64,000 nucleotides of DNA from Subsaxibacter sp. CAU 1640. Its GTDB lineage: Bacteria > Bacteroidota > Bacteroidia > Flavobacteriales > Flavobacteriaceae. A program made the position numbers and the translations under genes. Location of the stretch: the NCBI RefSeq assembly GCF_023156585.1, contig NZ_JALNMI010000001.1:682001-746000 (forward strand). The letters run 5' to 3'. Under the pieces are notes generated by a model. That model did no database searches. It was not told the DNA's origin and saw only the letters and a list, made by a program, of their open reading frames with translations. Of the stretch, positions 50,192-55,366 are shown one piece after another (the stretch's first letter is position 1; each line of letters begins with the position of its first letter).

Positions 50192-51733
50192 CTAAAACTT
50201 ATAACTTAATCCTGTATAAATACCTATAAAGTATGGTTGAAAATCACCCGAACTATTATTGAAGGTATTTATTTGATATTTAAATGTTGGTTCAACATTC
50301 ACCTTAATTTTTTCTGAAACATTATAATTGATCCCCAACCCAAAATTGGCACTATAGCTCATCGAATTGATGTTGTTTGCCTCTCCAATTCGGGTTCTGG
50401 CACCGTCTACGACAGAATAAATTTCGTTTTCATCAACAAACAAAGTACTAAAACCGCCTATCACGTTTATCCCAAACCTTTTATTGACCAATGCATATTC
50501 AACTTCCAATGGCACTTCGATAAAACCAAATTGTTGATCAATGGAACCTTTAGACTTTGAATTGACGACTTCGGGAGTAATGTTACTGTCCAAAGTCTCT
50601 GTGCTCATATACGTCATATCACTCGCATTGGGGTCCATATTTACATTCGCAATTCTTGTACGAGCCCTGCTAGTTGAATCTATGCTTCTGAAAGCAATCA
50701 CATTATTGGTTTTGTAACCCATGCCAACTTTATTAATTCCCGCTCTAACCTTAAGGCGATCGTTAATGGCATAACTTCCCCCCAAACCATAGCTCATGCT
50801 AATTTCAGATGTTTTGGTATTGTCTACAAATTGCTCGTCGATAGTAGAACCTTTTCCAAGAGAATTGAAATAAACAGGCGCCACATTCGGAGAAATGTTC
50901 CACCTGTTTAGTTTCTTTTCTTTTTCATCTTCATTATTGGCTTCAGCAATAGCATCTTCAATGCTTTGCGTAGTTTTATTTTCCTTTTTGCCTTCTTTTG
51001 ATGAAGATTCAACACTTATTTCAGAAGAGTTATTGGTAACTGCTGAATCAGAGTTGTTTTTTAAATCTTTTATCAGCTTATCGGCCTCGTCCTTGTCTAT
51101 TTTCTGGTTTTCAGAGTTGTTGAGTTTTTGATCATCCTTTGTACTAAACGTTACAGCGTCTGCTGTAGAATTGAATCTGTCATTTTGAGATGAAACATTC
51201 AATCTATCAGACGTTTCAGAATTTTTCTTCAAATTTGAATTCTTGACTGAATTATCAGCAACGTTAGTGTAACTCGATTTAGAAGTATTTTTATGATTTG
51301 AATACTTCGTATTTCTATTAAAATCATTGGAATTCAATCCGTCTTCGCCAGTATTTGATTCACTATTGAAATCAATTTCTTCATTCGCTATTTTGGATGA
51401 ATTGTTTTTGTCTTGAGGATTAGTTTCTAATTCGGTCGCGTTGTCCTCTATAGTCGTTTTGGAGTTTTCAGATGATGGATTCTCTGTGTCTACAATGATA
51501 TTTTTATTATCAATCGCTGAATCGTTAGAGAAAAAGTTAATTCCAACGGTCAATAACAAAGCTATAAGCGCAGCAACACCGGCCAATTTCCACCATAACG
51601 GTATAACTTTTCGATTACGCTTGTCATTATGCAAACGATCGTGTATGTTATCCCAAACAGAATCATCCGGTGAAACTTCAAAATCTTTGAGTTTCTCCTG
51701 AAACAGTCGGTCTATATGTTTTTTATCACTCAT
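50192..51733 (-). CDS. Anti-sigma-like protein fused to an outer-membrane beta-barrel
   Basis: A 513-residue protein with an unusual plan. Residues 1-45 are charged and start like sigma-interacting N-termini (DRLFQEKLKDFEVSPDDSVWDNIHDRL). A single membrane helix follows at about 47-68, then some 200 residues rich in Ser, Asn, Asp, Glu and Lys with no fold signs. The last 220 residues read as an outer-membrane beta-barrel (AVLTHS-free alternating strands, YGLGGSYAINDRLKVRAGINKVGMG, PYFIGIYTGLSYKF with terminal Phe). It shares one base with the stop of the ECF sigma gene upstream. One chain could thus span both membranes and pass signals to the sigma factor, as described for Dma proteins of Bacteroides. 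Confidence 0.8.
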   Translation of the reverse strand: MSDKKHIDRLFQEKLKDFEVSPDDSVWDNIHDRLHNDKRNRKVIPLWWKLAGVAALIALLLTVGINFFSNDSAIDNKNIIVDTENPSSENSKTTIEDNATELETNPQDKNNSSKIANEEIDFNSESNTGEDGLNSNDFNRNTKYSNHKNTSKSSYTNVADNSVKNSNLKKNSETSDRLNVSSQNDRFNSTADAVTFSTKDDQKLNNSENQKIDKDEADKLIKDLKNNSDSAVTNNSSEISVESSSKEGKKENKTTQSIEDAIAEANNEDEKEKKLNRWNISPNVAPVYFNSLGKGSTIDEQFVDNTKTSEISMSYGLGGSYAINDRLKVRAGINKVGMGYKTNNVIAFRSIDSTSRARTRIANVNMDPNASDMTYMSTETLDSNITPEVVNSKSKGSIDQQFGFIEVPLEVEYALVNKRFGINVIGGFSTLFVDENEIYSVVDGARTRIGEANNINSMSYSANFGLGINYNVSEKIKVNVEPTFKYQINTFNNSSGDFQPYFIGIYTGLSYKF

Positions 51734-52275
51734 TATAATGATTGCGAGTTTGAACTCGCTTTGTAATGTTCTATTTTTTCTTTTAAAATCAAACGAGCTC
51801 GAGCCAGGTTTGATTTTGAGGTTCCAATTGAAATTTCCAGCATATCTGCAATTTCTTGATGTGAATAGTCATCCAATGCATAGAGATTGAAGACCAAACG
51901 GTATCGATCTGGTAATTCTTGAATGATTTTAAGCAAATAATCCACGCCAATATTATCATTATCAATTTCAACACTGACGTCTTCTATCTGCTCTTCACCA
52001 ATGATGTCAAAAACACCAACACTTCTATATTGTTGTAAAGCCGTGTTGATGGTAATTCGTTTCATCCATCCCTCCAATGAACCTTTACTTTTATACTGTT
52101 CTATTTTCTTAAAAATAGTCACAAACGCATCTTGCAGATTATCTTGAGCTTCTGCATAGTTTCTCGAGTACTTTAGGCTGAGCGAAAACAACTTACTTGC
52201 GTAGAGTTTATATATTTGGCTTTGAGCTTTAGCATCGTTTTTTTTACATTGTTCTATGAGTTGTTCTAAACTCAA
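51733..52275 (-). CDS. ECF sigma factor
   Basis: A 180-residue sigma-70 family ECF factor. Region 2 is at about 10-85 (YKLYASKLFSLSLKYSRNYAEAQDNLQDAFVTIF) and region 4 at about 115-175 (LPDRYRLVFNLYALDDYSHQEIADMLEISIGTSKSNLARAR, a helix-turn-helix). It directs polymerase to a specific envelope regulon. The TAATG overlap with the anti-sigma/barrel gene marks them as a coupled pair. Confidence 0.93.
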   Translation of the reverse strand: MSLEQLIEQCKKNDAKAQSQIYKLYASKLFSLSLKYSRNYAEAQDNLQDAFVTIFKKIEQYKSKGSLEGWMKRITINTALQQYRSVGVFDIIGEEQIEDVSVEIDNDNIGVDYLLKIIQELPDRYRLVFNLYALDDYSHQEIADMLEISIGTSKSNLARARLILKEKIEHYKASSNSQSL

Positions 52276-52306
52276 ATGTGTTTTCTGTTTTAATTTTTCT
52301 ACTTTC

Positions 52307-52720
52307 TTATTCCACCACCGGCACTTCCACTATATAGTAGGTGTCGTCACCATTGTCATCTTCGCCTTGCCAAAACCTAAAAACATACGTGCCATTGCTA
52401 GTGACTTTAAAATTAAAGGACACTTCTTCGAGCTCGTTTTCAAATGTTTGGCAATCTTGATTTGGATAAACAGTGTTAATGACAGCAACTGTTCTTTGAT
52501 TAAGTTCGCTGGTGTAATAAAAGTTGTTGAACACGTGGCAGCCTGAAGGGCGCAAATAGGATACAGTAATCTCATAAGTTTCACCCAGAGTAAATTCATC
52601 AGGAATATCTACAGTTTCAATTGGCAAAATTTCATAATAAAATTCACCATCGCCATCATCGCCAAGACTGCAAGAGGCCAATGATAACGCAAGAACGCAT
52701 AATAACAAAAATTGTTTCAT
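52307..52720 (-). CDS. Surface-type lipoprotein of unknown function
   Basis: A 137-residue lipoprotein with lipobox LASC (C17). The residues just after it, SLGDDGDGE, are acidic, which resembles the Bacteroidota lipoprotein export signal for the cell surface. The rest is beta-rich with a pair of cysteines (SGCHVFNN and NQDCQTF). It is 31 nt upstream of the ECF sigma gene on the same strand, so it is probably co-transcribed. I recognise no family. Confidence 0.8.
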   Translation of the reverse strand: MKQFLLLCVLALSLASCSLGDDGDGEFYYEILPIETVDIPDEFTLGETYEITVSYLRPSGCHVFNNFYYTSELNQRTVAVINTVYPNQDCQTFENELEEVSFNFKVTSNGTYVFRFWQGEDDNGDDTYYIVEVPVVE

Positions 52721-52802
52721 ATTAAATAATTCGATTTAGGAACCTTCCATTTTCAATCTGTAGATACATAAAGAGTGAAAAGGTTGCGTAGAAAAATAAA
52801 AA

Positions 52803-52831: not shown

Positions 52832-53845
52832 TTAATCGTCTGATGAAGCTGCTTTGGCAATTTTTCTAACCTTTTGTTCAAGCTCTTCCATCAGTTCGGG
52901 ATTATCTTTTATCAAAGCTTTAACTGCATCTCGACCTTGACCTAGTTTCGTGTCTTCATAACTAAACCAAGAACCACTTTTCTTAATGATTTCATTTTCA
53001 ACGGCGATGTCTAAAATCTCTCCAACTTTTGAAACCCCTTCGCCATACATAATGTCAAATTCTGCAGTTTTAAATGGTGGAGCCACTTTGTTCTTCACAA
53101 CTTTTACACGCGTTTTGTTGCCAGCAACACTGCCATCAGTTTCTTTAATTTGTGTTGAACGTCTAATATCCAATCGTACTGAAGCATAAAATTTAAGTGC
53201 ATTTCCACCGGTTGTAGTTTCAGGGTTTCCAAACATCACACCGATTTTTTCTCTTAATTGGTTAATGAAAATAACCGTACAATTGGTTTTACTGATAGAG
53301 CCTGTCAATTTTCTCAAGGCTTGTGACATTAAACGTGCATGTAATCCCATTTTTGAGTCACCCATTTCTCCTTCGATTTCGCTTTTAGGAGTCAAAGCTG
53401 CAACGGAATCAATCACTACAATATCAATAGCACCCGAACGAATTAAATTATCTGCAATCTCTAAAGCTTGCTCACCATTGTCGGGTTGAGAAATTATAAG
53501 GTTTTCTATATCTACGTTTAGCTTTTCCGCATAAGTCCTATCAAATGCATGTTCCGCATCGATAAAAGCAGCAATTCCTCCAGCCTTTTGAGCTTCTGCA
53601 ATGGCATGCAGAGTAAGGGTGGTTTTACCAGAAGACTCTGGGCCATATATTTCAATTATTCTTCCTCTTGGGTATCCGCCCACTCCTAGTGCAATGTCCA
53701 ATCCCAAGGAACCTGATGAAATGGCATCTACATCTACTACCGCTTGATCGCTCATTTTCATCACAGTTCCTTTACCATAAGCCTTGTCCAGCTTATCTAG
53801 AGTTAACTGCAATGCCTTTAATTTTGCGTCTTTTTCACTACTCAT
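52832..53845 (-). CDS. recA: Recombinase RecA
   Basis: A 337-residue RecA. Walker [10 protein letters not shown] is at residues 68-76; [59 protein letters not shown] and the C-terminal acidic tail (AASSDD) are typical. It forms the nucleoprotein filament for recombination and SOS signalling. The gene is single, with its own promoter and terminator. Confidence 0.98.
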
Positions 53846-53906: not shown

Positions 53907-53976
53907 TGCGATGACGCAACCTTTTTACACTTTTTGCATCTACCTAATGAGATTGGGAAATCTTGCTATGAAATCT

Positions 53977-53993
53977 GTCGTTTGAGAAGCGAC
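53977..53993 (+). other. Short hairpin upstream of the 30-codon gene
   Basis: GTCGTTT and AAGCGAC pair over seven positions (one wobble) around GAG. It lies 40 nt upstream of the small ORF in the otherwise gene-free 456-nt stretch between recA and trhO. Confidence 0.4.
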
Positions 53994-54032: not shown

Positions 54033-54125
54033 ATGAAATTTTTTAAAAAAATTGTTTTCAACAACGCATTAGGTGTTTCAATTGCTATCACTTTAAATGG
54101 CAATTGTAGAGCCGATGGTGGTTAG
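54033..54125 (+). CDS. Putative 30-residue peptide gene
   Basis: ATG to TAG, 30 codons, in the gap between recA and trhO. The peptide starts with a basic-aromatic MKFFKKIVF, has a mildly hydrophobic centre (ALGVSIAITLNG) and ends in NCRADGG, with one cysteine and a terminal di-glycine. The stop codon lies in the 5' arm of a long hairpin (54120-54182) and a strong terminator follows at 54188. This arrangement of start, stop, hairpin and terminator supports a real short transcript. No database family is known to me. It could be a signalling or modified peptide, a small membrane peptide, a type I toxin or a leader peptide. Confidence 0.5.
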   Translation: MKFFKKIVFNNALGVSIAITLNGNCRADGG

Positions 54126-54182
54126 CTCGTAAAATATTTTTTGAATATTTAAAATTGAAAAAATATAAATAACGAGTTAGCC
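54120..54182 (+). other. Long RNA hairpin over the stop codon of the 30-codon gene
   Basis: GGTTAGCTCGT (54120-54130) pairs fully with ACGAGTTAGCC (54172-54182), with two G-U wobbles, and the A/T-rich inner part can extend the stem (TTTTTT with AAAAAA). The TAG stop of the small gene is part of the 5' arm, so a ribosome finishing the peptide would hold the hairpin open. Confidence 0.7.
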
Positions 54183-54187
54183 TAATT

Positions 54188-54220
54188 AAAGCACTTTAGA
54201 AAACCTAAAGTGCTTTTTTT
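54188..54220 (+). terminator. Rho-independent terminator after the 30-codon gene
   Basis: A perfect stem AAAGCACTTTAG/CTAAAGTGCTTT with loop AAAAC and a run of seven or more T. No other gene upstream on the plus strand needs it, so it marks a transcript that includes the small ORF. Confidence 0.88.
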
Positions 54221-54262: not shown

Positions 54263-54270
54263 TATCTTTG
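54263..54270 (+). promoter_or_regulatory. Probable -7 promoter element of trhO
   Basis: TATCTTTG matches TAnnTTTG exactly and lies 31 nt before the ATG at 54302; no TTG is seen at the standard -33 distance. Confidence 0.5.
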
Positions 54271-54301: not shown

Positions 54302-55366
54302 ATGCAACTGTACAATACTTTAAGCGCTAAAGAAAGAGCCGAACTTATTGAACAAGCAGGCAAAGACCGCTTGACGATCTCTTTCTATGCCTATGCCAAG
54401 ATTGGCAATCCTGAAATTTTAAGAAATCACTTGTTTTTAGTCTGGAACGAATTAGATGTTCTGGGTCGTATTTATGTGGCTCATGAAGGTATCAATGCGC
54501 AACTATCCATACCTGCGGATAATTTTAACAAGTTCAAAGAACATTTGGATACTATTAGTTTTCTAGAAGATGTCCGATTGAACATTGCCGTTGAACAAAA
54601 TAATTTTGCTTTTTTAAAATTGAAAGTAAAAGTTCGTGACAAAATTGTAGCTGACGGATTGAATGACGATACCTTTGATGTGACCAACAAAGGAATTCAT
54701 GTAGATGCTCAAAAATTCAATGAACTGATTGAAGATGAGAACACCATTCTGGTAGATATGCGCAACCATTATGAGAGTGAAATAGGCCATTTCAAAAATG
54801 CCATTACACCTGATGTAGATACCTTTAGGGAATCCTTGGATATTATTGAAGAAGATTTAAAAGACCACAAGGAAGATAAAAATCTTGTTATGTATTGTAC
54901 CGGAGGTATACGTTGTGAAAAAGCAAGTGCTTACTACAAACATAAAGGGTTTAAAAACGTTTACCAACTCGAAGGTGGAATCATAAACTATGTGCGCCAA
55001 ATTAACGAAAAAGGTTTAGACAATAAGTTCATAGGAAAGAACTTTGTGTTTGACGAGCGGCGTTCCGAGAGAATCTCTGATGATGTCATTGCGCATTGCC
55101 ATCAGTGTGGTAAACCTGCAGACTTACATACTAATTGTGCGAATGAGGCATGTCATTTGTTGTTCATACAATGTGAGGAGTGTAAGGAAAAAATGGAAAA
55201 TTGTTGTTCAACCAACTGCATGGAAATAAATCGTATGCCTTATGAAGAACAAAAGGCATTGCGAAAAGGACAAGGTAATAGCAACGACATTTTCAAAAAA
55301 GGTAGAGCAGACCATCTGCCTTTTAAAAAAGACTTAAGGAACATTTTTGAAGTTCTAAAAAAATAG
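54302..55366 (+). CDS. trhO: tRNA uridine(34) hydroxylase TrhO (rhodanese-like)
   Basis: A 354-residue TrhO/YceA protein, which hydroxylates U34 of certain tRNAs with oxygen. It has the N-terminal acylphosphatase-like domain, a central rhodanese domain with the active-site C199 in YCTGGIRCEKAS, and a C-terminal cysteine-rich tail (CHQCGKP... CEECKEKMENCC) typical of the longer members. It has its own promoter and a terminator. Confidence 0.93.
   Translation: MQLYNTLSAKERAELIEQAGKDRLTISFYAYAKIGNPEILRNHLFLVWNELDVLGRIYVAHEGINAQLSIPADNFNKFKEHLDTISFLEDVRLNIAVEQNNFAFLKLKVKVRDKIVADGLNDDTFDVTNKGIHVDAQKFNELIEDENTILVDMRNHYESEIGHFKNAITPDVDTFRESLDIIEEDLKDHKEDKNLVMYCTGGIRCEKASAYYKHKGFKNVYQLEGGIINYVRQINEKGLDNKFIGKNFVFDERRSERISDDVIAHCHQCGKPADLHTNCANEACHLLFIQCEECKEKMENCCSTNCMEINRMPYEEQKALRKGQGNSNDIFKKGRADHLPFKKDLRNIFEVLKK

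Follow-up and report, generated by a model that had tools for sequence, protein, structure and literature searches.

RybB, MicA, and MicL are sigma-E-dependent sRNAs, that is, small terminated RNAs under the control of an envelope-stress ECF sigma factor, and in enterobacteria the sigma-E sRNAs pair with the mRNAs of outer-membrane proteins. SgrS/SgrT is a dual-function RNA; its regulator and lineage, and those of VcdRP, differ from those of the locus described here. VcdRP is a dual-function RNA that encodes the 29-aa VcdP (PMC8672173). The FopS and GibS sRNAs and RbpB belong to Bacteroides, and the FopS sRNAs, 14 paralogues that have a single-stranded 5' seed and a terminator and are transcribed with the housekeeping sigma factor, act on a SusC mRNA (PMC11697453). 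Rfp18 and Rfp11 are structured sRNAs of Flavobacterium psychrophilum (PMC9723704). The paper on the Dma/Das dual membrane-spanning anti-sigma systems of Bacteroides covers Dma, Das, and NigD1, and the phrase "small RNA" is absent from its main text (PMC13088901).

How does the present locus compare? It lies in the window, the whole 64,000-nucleotide stretch of the Subsaxibacter sp. CAU 1640 genome analyzed here, between recA (52832..53845, minus strand) and trhO (54302..55366, plus strand), which are 456 nt apart. An earlier note, made from the letters alone, had claimed that this gap holds an unannotated 30-codon ATG-TAG frame, and it does: the ORF (54033..54125, plus strand, with the stop TAG at 54123-54125) encodes MKFFKKIVFNNALGVSIAITLNGNCRADGG and, by the codon statistics given below, is under selection as a protein. 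Its stop codon sits, again as claimed, in the 5' arm of a hairpin that is conserved among relatives. This arm, GGTTAGCTCGT (54120..54130, plus strand), consists of the last Gly codon, the stop, and CTCGT, and it pairs over 11 bp with the 3' arm ACGAGTTAGCC (54172..54182, plus strand); two of the pairs are G-U, and a weaker A/T inner stem extends the helix. Farther 3' is a separate intrinsic terminator with a 12-bp stem and a T-run (54188..54219, plus strand). The ORF, the stop-containing hairpin, and the terminator are all present, beyond what chance would give.

Two statements of the note stood only in part. The feature starts farther upstream than it had supposed, with an ECF-type promoter-like motif, CGCAACCTTTTTACACTTTTTGCATCTAC (53915..53943, plus strand), followed by a small 5' hairpin, AGATTGGGAAATCT (53950..53963, plus strand), in the leader of a transcript whose start is inferred. 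The note had also held that no other plus-strand gene needs the terminator. trhO does follow on the same strand, although it has a sigma-A-like box of its own, TATCTTTG (54263..54270, plus strand), past the terminator; the box is TAnnTTTG-like, after the sigma-A-like consensus in the cited part of PMC9723704. The ECF-type promoter, an adjoining sigma/anti-sigma operon with the same motif, and versions of the RNA that have no ORF had escaped the note.

Set beside RybB, MicA, and MicL, the locus likewise predicts a small terminated RNA that is linked to an ECF sigma factor, here by its promoter motif. It differs in that target pairing is unsupported and in that the predicted RNA carries an ORF under selection, the stop codon of which lies in a hairpin. 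SgrS/SgrT and VcdRP likewise combine a small ORF and conserved RNA parts in one short RNA, a comparison made by description only. The FopS sRNAs and the candidate RNA are both sRNAs of Bacteroidota; FopS, in the part of PMC11697453 that is cited, is described without an ORF. Rfp11 occurs, in the cited part of PMC9723704, in a promoter list taken as that of the ECF-type motif SM6, and it is likened to the present RNA by description rather than by sequence comparison; the motif found here is absent in all 10 surveyed recA regions of g127, the largest genus, taken as Flavobacterium. The candidate RNA would work like known kinds, namely, ECF-dependent sRNAs and dual-function RNAs, and is not placed in any named family. 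The earlier note knew of no family with this pattern, and the databases agree: the peptide has no match above cut-off in Pfam or NCBIfam, and the feature is overlapped by no Rfam 15 match up to an E value of 5. Twelve distant loci gave two Rfam matches, both below the gathering threshold (STnc540 in L338, E 0.14; rimP in L346, E 0.32). No account of the RNA or the peptide was found among the literature titles and abstract openings searched, a depth of search that does not prove absence.

The feature is present in all four genomes of the genus, that of the window included, where the ORF is single copy. Of 299 sampled genomes of the family, 94 have a match at E<=1e-3 and 46 have one at E<1e-10, the weaker matches being mostly short pieces. 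A peptide profile run on the GTDB genome collection, combined with the pattern N[SG][NS]CK[AT]DGG, gave 107 stretches, 98 of them confirmed; the best 80 of these 98 were fetched and, together with the window, make up the 81-locus set used throughout. Genera named in the record titles include Gelidibacter, Psychroserpens, Olleya, Lacinutrix, Mangrovimonas, Xanthomarina, Bizionia, Flavivirga, and Algibacter. Each of the 81 loci contains a frame that opens with ATG and runs for 28 or 30 codons. In 80 of them recA is the divergent upstream neighbor, and in 75 trhO follows within 2.5 kb in the same direction; of the other six, one is cut off by a contig end, and the five that do have 2.5 kb of sequence lack trhO by tblastn. 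By these counts, the small gene is more strongly linked to recA (80/81) than to trhO (75/81). The earlier note had offered loss of the frame or of synteny among relatives as grounds for giving up its reading, and both are retained.

Is the frame kept as a protein? Codon statistics were taken from 72 of the 81 ORFs, the nine 28-codon ORFs being left out. In the 30-codon set, pN/pS is 0.41 for the ORF frame, compared with 0.94 and 0.75 for the other two, and entropy is 0.95 at the third codon position against 0.56 and 0.47 at the others. The ratio for codons 2-21 alone is 0.61. That for the last nine codons is 0.07, a value that is biased because codons 22-30 served as the search pattern for the loci. 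The basic residue of the [KR]xDGG tail is written AAA, AAG, AGA, AGG, CGC, or CGG. Judged by its codons, the frame is under purifying selection as a protein. A chance origin of the ORF was considered and rejected on the codon statistics and on a survey, with controls, of ORFs that end in [KR]xDGG-stop.

This survey was based on recA, which was located in 145 of 149 sampled Flavobacteriaceae genomes and, at the level of the order, in 141 of 148. Regions were chosen by recA rather than by the ORF in order to avoid selection on the ORF. The 119 Flavobacteriaceae regions surveyed (100 + 10 + 9) omit 30 strong-match genomes and ten others, and the counts are not a frequency estimate because the best ORF carriers were left out. 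A loose pattern of the promoter motif matches 55 of the 119 regions, compared with 1 of the 119 reverse strands and a mean of 0.55 in shuffled sets; 64 regions have no motif, and by eye none was seen in 31 recA-upstream regions from other families of the order. ORFs ending in [KR]xDGG-stop occur in 12 of the 55 regions with the motif and in 1 of the 64 without it; neither the 119 reverse strands nor ten rounds of dinucleotide shuffling gave any. Among the 12, L255 was known from the earlier profile search, and L263 and L301 had already matched weakly at the DNA level in the family sample. L329, L345, L320, and L330 were counted among the diverged ORFs by eye.

What the diverged peptides retain is a basic residue at position 2, a size of 28 to 31 residues (L272, as read, has 33), in most cases Gly14, and the tail; otherwise they have little in common. 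The [KR]xDGG-stop ending is widely kept, and Gly14 is mostly found at a constant distance from it; exceptions are L278, L289, L352, and L345, where Gly14 is not at that position, and L329, L345, and L320, where the tail is a variant (E or DDG). When 18 peptides are aligned, the C terminus is the most conserved part, and the final two Gly residues are invariant. A peptide-profile search across the order matched 16 of 395 genomes at E<=0.01: four strong matches, two diverged true relatives (L054 and L055), and ten judged by eye to be non-relatives, six of which are near-identical stretches in genus g127. At L054 and L055, the diverged copy lies beside recA, has a TTG start and a TGA stop, and is followed by a different gene. 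As sequence comparison shows, the gene stays beside recA even in loci with a very diverged ORF or none at all.

What do the motif-bearing regions that have no ORF contain? At least 30 of the 55 carry short RNAs without it, as far as terminators were recognized by eye, and classes B and C and ten other regions were likewise assigned by eye. Class B comprises 13 motif-bearing regions with a short terminated RNA and no ORF, and CTARCTC is found in 11 of the 13. Class C comprises 17 with a different terminated RNA, in which a CTATGAA-like stretch lies between pairing segments. The ten others are mixed, unclear, or decayed. L295 and L357 resemble decayed ORFs, although what remains of them matches weakly (E values of 0.17 and 0.98 from a small search). 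Since the predicted RNAs of classes B and C keep the motif and the terminator without the ORF, the ORF cannot be essential to the role of the RNA in these classes, and such a role appears to be independent of it. A tree of trhO N termini was built from 95 usable rows of 143 loci; its bootstrap has not settled, and its root and many forks are uncertain. It contains a supported group of 77 that unites ORF-bearing, class B, and mixed rows and includes none of the 15 class C rows, and within it class B rows are interspersed among ORF-bearing ones. The simplest reading, we infer, is that the ORF was lost repeatedly in class B.

Some details of these RNAs may be recorded here. The ORF-less terminated RNAs of L287, L297, L305, L308, L309, L323, L325, L327, L328, L335, L339, and L344 mostly have a GACUARCUCRAA-like sequence, which in several of them lies, by eye, between short complementary arms. 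A second ORF-less type in the same position, with a GCUAUGAAAAAG-like sequence, is seen at L241, L242, L246, L285, L290, L292, L304, L314, and L316 and also at L319, L321, L324, L337, L342, L343, L346, and L350. In this type, UGGUCA...UGGCCA-like pairing segments precede the terminator (by eye).

The motif itself, CGCAACCTTTT-N9-TGCATCTAC, has eight sites with up to three mismatches in the genome of the window and none in the reversed control. It was found upstream of the ORF in 78 of the 80 fetched loci, and the window site comes from the own-genome search. A second copy (52760..52788, minus strand) precedes an operon on the other side of recA (50192-52720, minus strand), and the same motif stands directly ahead of the lipoprotein-like ORF of this operon in 66 of the 81 loci. 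The operon encodes, in order and all on the minus strand, a small lipoprotein, MKQFLLLCVLALSLASC... (52307..52720), which has no match above cut-off in Pfam or NCBIfam; an ECF sigma factor of clear identity (51733..52275); and an anti-sigma-like protein (50192..51733). The last begins with a short N-terminal part and has a single hydrophobic segment, from which a long linker leads to a barrel-like part at the C terminus. Its matches to OMP_b-brl and OmpA_membrane are below cut-off, the barrel models scoring 24 bits against a cut-off of 28.7 bits and 20.4 bits against a cut-off of 21 bits. This layout of hydrophobic segment, linker, and barrel-like part resembles that of Dma/Das, and the protein is called Dma-like here. 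In the Dma/Das systems, too, as described in the cited part of PMC13088901, an ECF sigma factor sits beside an anti-sigma-like protein; the operon here contains a lipoprotein gene.

The other motif sites in the genome precede the operon next door, further lipoprotein-like genes, a gene whose product is another exported protein, and a long-leader SusC gene; the weakest sites include at least one that is inside a gene. The SusC gene, at locus L046 (G000:C1:8437-8465, minus strand), has a leader of roughly 200 nt. All 20 distant loci chosen for inspection (5 with a diverged ORF, 6 of class B, and 9 of class C) have the motif, by the loose pattern, and an anti-sigma ORF beyond recA, and 19 of them also have the lipoprotein ORF there. 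The small gene appears to belong to the regulon of the neighboring ECF sigma factor, to which it is assigned because its promoter motif is common to the gene and the sigma operon; the shared motif is the sole tie between the two.

The stop-codon hairpin has evidence on both sides. The region folds at -61.1 kcal/mol, compared with -35.0 kcal/mol for shuffles (z -6.8, 0 of 200 shuffles being as low), and single-sequence folding places the hairpin in the minimum-energy fold of 78 of the 81 loci. In an alignment of 55 of the 81, 92.4% of the hairpin cells are paired, against 89.2% in shuffles and 13-53% when the partner is slid. Covariation in the stem, the want of which the earlier note would have counted against itself, is seen as changes on both sides of 4 of the 11 pairs, though the RNAalifold consensus of the same 55 sequences does not recover the hairpin and gives a 4-bp stem, AGCC/GGYU, over the last codons instead. 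At five of the 11 pairs, between 6 and 16 of the 55 sequences mispair, and the Gly and stop codons constrain part of the outer pairing for reasons of their own. In most diverged forms of the ORF, the stop again lies within a hairpin, with a 3' arm like AACGAATTAGCC; the L271 fold is an exception. For Ala27 (codon 27, 54111-54113), 65 of 72 close relatives use GCC, a preference that suggests an added RNA constraint, perhaps arising from the RNAalifold stem.

What kind of gene is this? That it is an ECF-linked RNA gene carrying a translated small ORF is highly probable, given the in-frame selection, the hairpin in nearly all single-sequence folds, and the motif common to it and the sigma operon. 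The evidence tilts toward a fuller account as the best overall: an ECF-sigma-linked small RNA gene that codes for a peptide in part of its range and is gated by translation. The neighboring ECF sigma factor, with the Dma-like anti-sigma protein as its partner, would set transcription of the gene, which would respond to the state of the envelope. The transcript would carry an ORF of 28-31 codons with the basic second residue, usually Gly14, and [KR]xDGG before the stop. With the usual footprint, a ribosome terminating at KxDGG-stop would cover the whole 11-nt 5' arm of the hairpin. Termination and the hairpin would be mutually exclusive because of this coverage: the terminating ribosome would hold the hairpin open, and the hairpin would form only where no ribosome is finishing. 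Termination would be slowed by the conserved tail, whose spacing from Gly14 is mostly constant, and whether the hairpin is open or closed would decide the stability of the RNA or its pairing. The assignment to the sigma factor, the response to the envelope, and the mechanism are predictions from sequence. Gating of the RNA by translation, as opposed to a peptide that acts in trans, is put forward tentatively, and the two are about equally likely. Against the account as a whole stand the failure of RNAalifold to recover the hairpin, the codon-fixed outer pairs, the mispairing noted above, the ORF-less RNAs of classes B and C, the 64 surveyed regions without the motif, and the loci where Gly14 is not kept; the GG end would fit a C-terminal motif read by a partner protein equally well. 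In its most specific form, in which the nascent [KR]xDGG peptide slows release at the hairpin-buried stop, the ribosome toggles an envelope-stress sRNA between open and closed, and ORF-less relatives have swapped this gate for other hairpins, the proposal is doubtful.

If the ECF-linked account is true, flavobacteria would possess an ECF system for envelope stress that has its own dedicated small RNA in a constant place next to recA, a layout comparable to that of the enterobacterial sigma-E sRNAs in a phylum with few sRNAs of known role. The stop codon within the hairpin would offer a clean test case for the gating of an sRNA by a terminating ribosome, and the shared promoter motif would make the regulon readable from sequence. 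In many flavobacteria an overlooked small gene lies next to recA, apparently under the control of an envelope-stress regulator, and its predicted product is a conserved peptide some 30 residues long.

The strongest rival makes the peptide the product that matters: a 30-residue envelope-stress small protein would act in trans, its free [KR]xDGG C terminus being read by a partner (the sigma/anti-sigma pair or a protease, for example), with the hairpin doing no more than protect the end of the mRNA. This is a real contender, though short of probable. Selection at the protein level favors it, as do the C terminus, the best-conserved part of the 18 aligned peptides with its invariant last two Gly residues, and the stand-alone character of the gene, with its own promoter motif and terminator; several other motif genes in the genome also encode lipoproteins or exported proteins. 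It accounts less well for lineages that keep the motif and terminator while the ORF is missing or looks decayed. Nor would a protective hairpin need to contain the stop codon, a placement found in most diverged forms too (the L271 fold excepted).

Does the RNA instead pair with SusC mRNAs? In this improbable alternative, a trans-acting sRNA would target the mRNAs of outer-membrane receptors (SusC), with the 3' arm GAGUUAGUC as the seed for CUAACUC in SusC leaders. ACTAAC does lie up to 70 nt upstream of 7 of 27 TIGR04056-matched genes compared with 1 of 55 other ORFs of the window (Fisher p 0.0014), in a test chosen after one example had been seen, the choice of seed being post hoc. The CTARCTC of 11 of the 13 class B RNAs recurs as a same-sense element in two SusC leaders, and RACTARCTCRAA occurs 78 times against 24 for the control in seven class B genomes; in five ORF genomes the figures are 25 and 20, hardly above the control. 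Against pairing, the class B element has the sense of the SusC leader and not its complement, many of the RACTARCTCRAA sites that can be inspected fall inside genes, and ACTAACTC-N6-28-ATGAA gives 169 matches against 154 in the control, no clear enrichment, in the 46 genomes where the ORF match is strong. With so little excess in the family-wide pattern count, the seed is unsupported for the ORF-bearing form and is kept as a rival only. The element GACTAACTCAAA, with 78 matches against 24 for the control in the seven class B genomes and many of the inspected sites inside genes, was noticed about 20 nt before two SusC starts (L385 and L405). The same element lies past the terminator of a purE-like gene (L402 and L407) and may there be part of a separate small RNA, and its complement is found just 3' of the stop of a leuB-like gene (L386 and L401), both genes being identified by eye.

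Three further readings, two of which go back to candidates named in the earlier note, fare poorly. A type I toxin or small membrane peptide silenced by RNA structure is quite unlikely. The peptide is short, has a basic N terminus, and is fairly hydrophobic in the window, and the leader has an upstream start in 70 of 79 loci; on the other side stand the single copy in the genome, the linkage to recA across many genera, and relatives that are hardly hydrophobic. The best 15-residue hydropathy, 1.8 in the window, is 0.07 in L258 and 0.49 in L278, values that do not support a membrane peptide as a general reading. A tiny lipoprotein, made of a signal peptide and a mature CKADGG, is a shade less credible still. 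Its basic N terminus and hydrophobic middle are as required, the window value lying within the 1.73-2.51 of three lipoproteins of the regulon and on a par with one of them, and Cys25 is invariant in the 80 close relatives, where, however, it is part of the search pattern. An invariant Asn at -3 with Asn or Ser at -1 makes no usual lipobox. Distant relatives have F, S, A, or Y for the Cys and less hydrophobic middles, and the lipoprotein reading, which stood as long as the close relatives alone were known, was dropped because the distant ones lack the Cys. The same replacements speak against the Cys-based peptide that the note had entertained, and the modification-enzyme neighbor expected beside a RiPP precursor was not found to be conserved, the conserved neighbors being recA, mostly trhO, and the sigma operon. 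Least probable of all is a leader peptide attenuator of trhO, the note's cis leader: trhO does lie downstream on the same strand in 75 of the 81 loci, and a YceA/rhodanese gene of F. psychrophilum is in the promoter list taken as motif SM6 (PMC9723704, cited part), but trhO has its own sigma-A-like box past the terminator, is absent within 2.5 kb in 5 of the 81 loci, and is replaced by a different gene in L054 and L055.

The upstream start just mentioned is an ATG or GTG, counted in the leaders with a recognized promoter, and its position differs in some of them. In the window it opens the frame MKSVV* (53968..53985, plus strand), and the corresponding peptide is variable in relatives. A conserved upstream ORF was considered and rejected: a GCTRTGAAA-like stretch, in the leader or at the ORF start, is found in 72 of the 81 loci, yet the peptide is not kept. 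Class C RNAs, which have no ORF, likewise contain CTATGAA-like stretches (16 or 17 of 17, according to the pattern used), and for this reason the GCTRTGAAA/CTATGAA-like stretch may be an RNA element.
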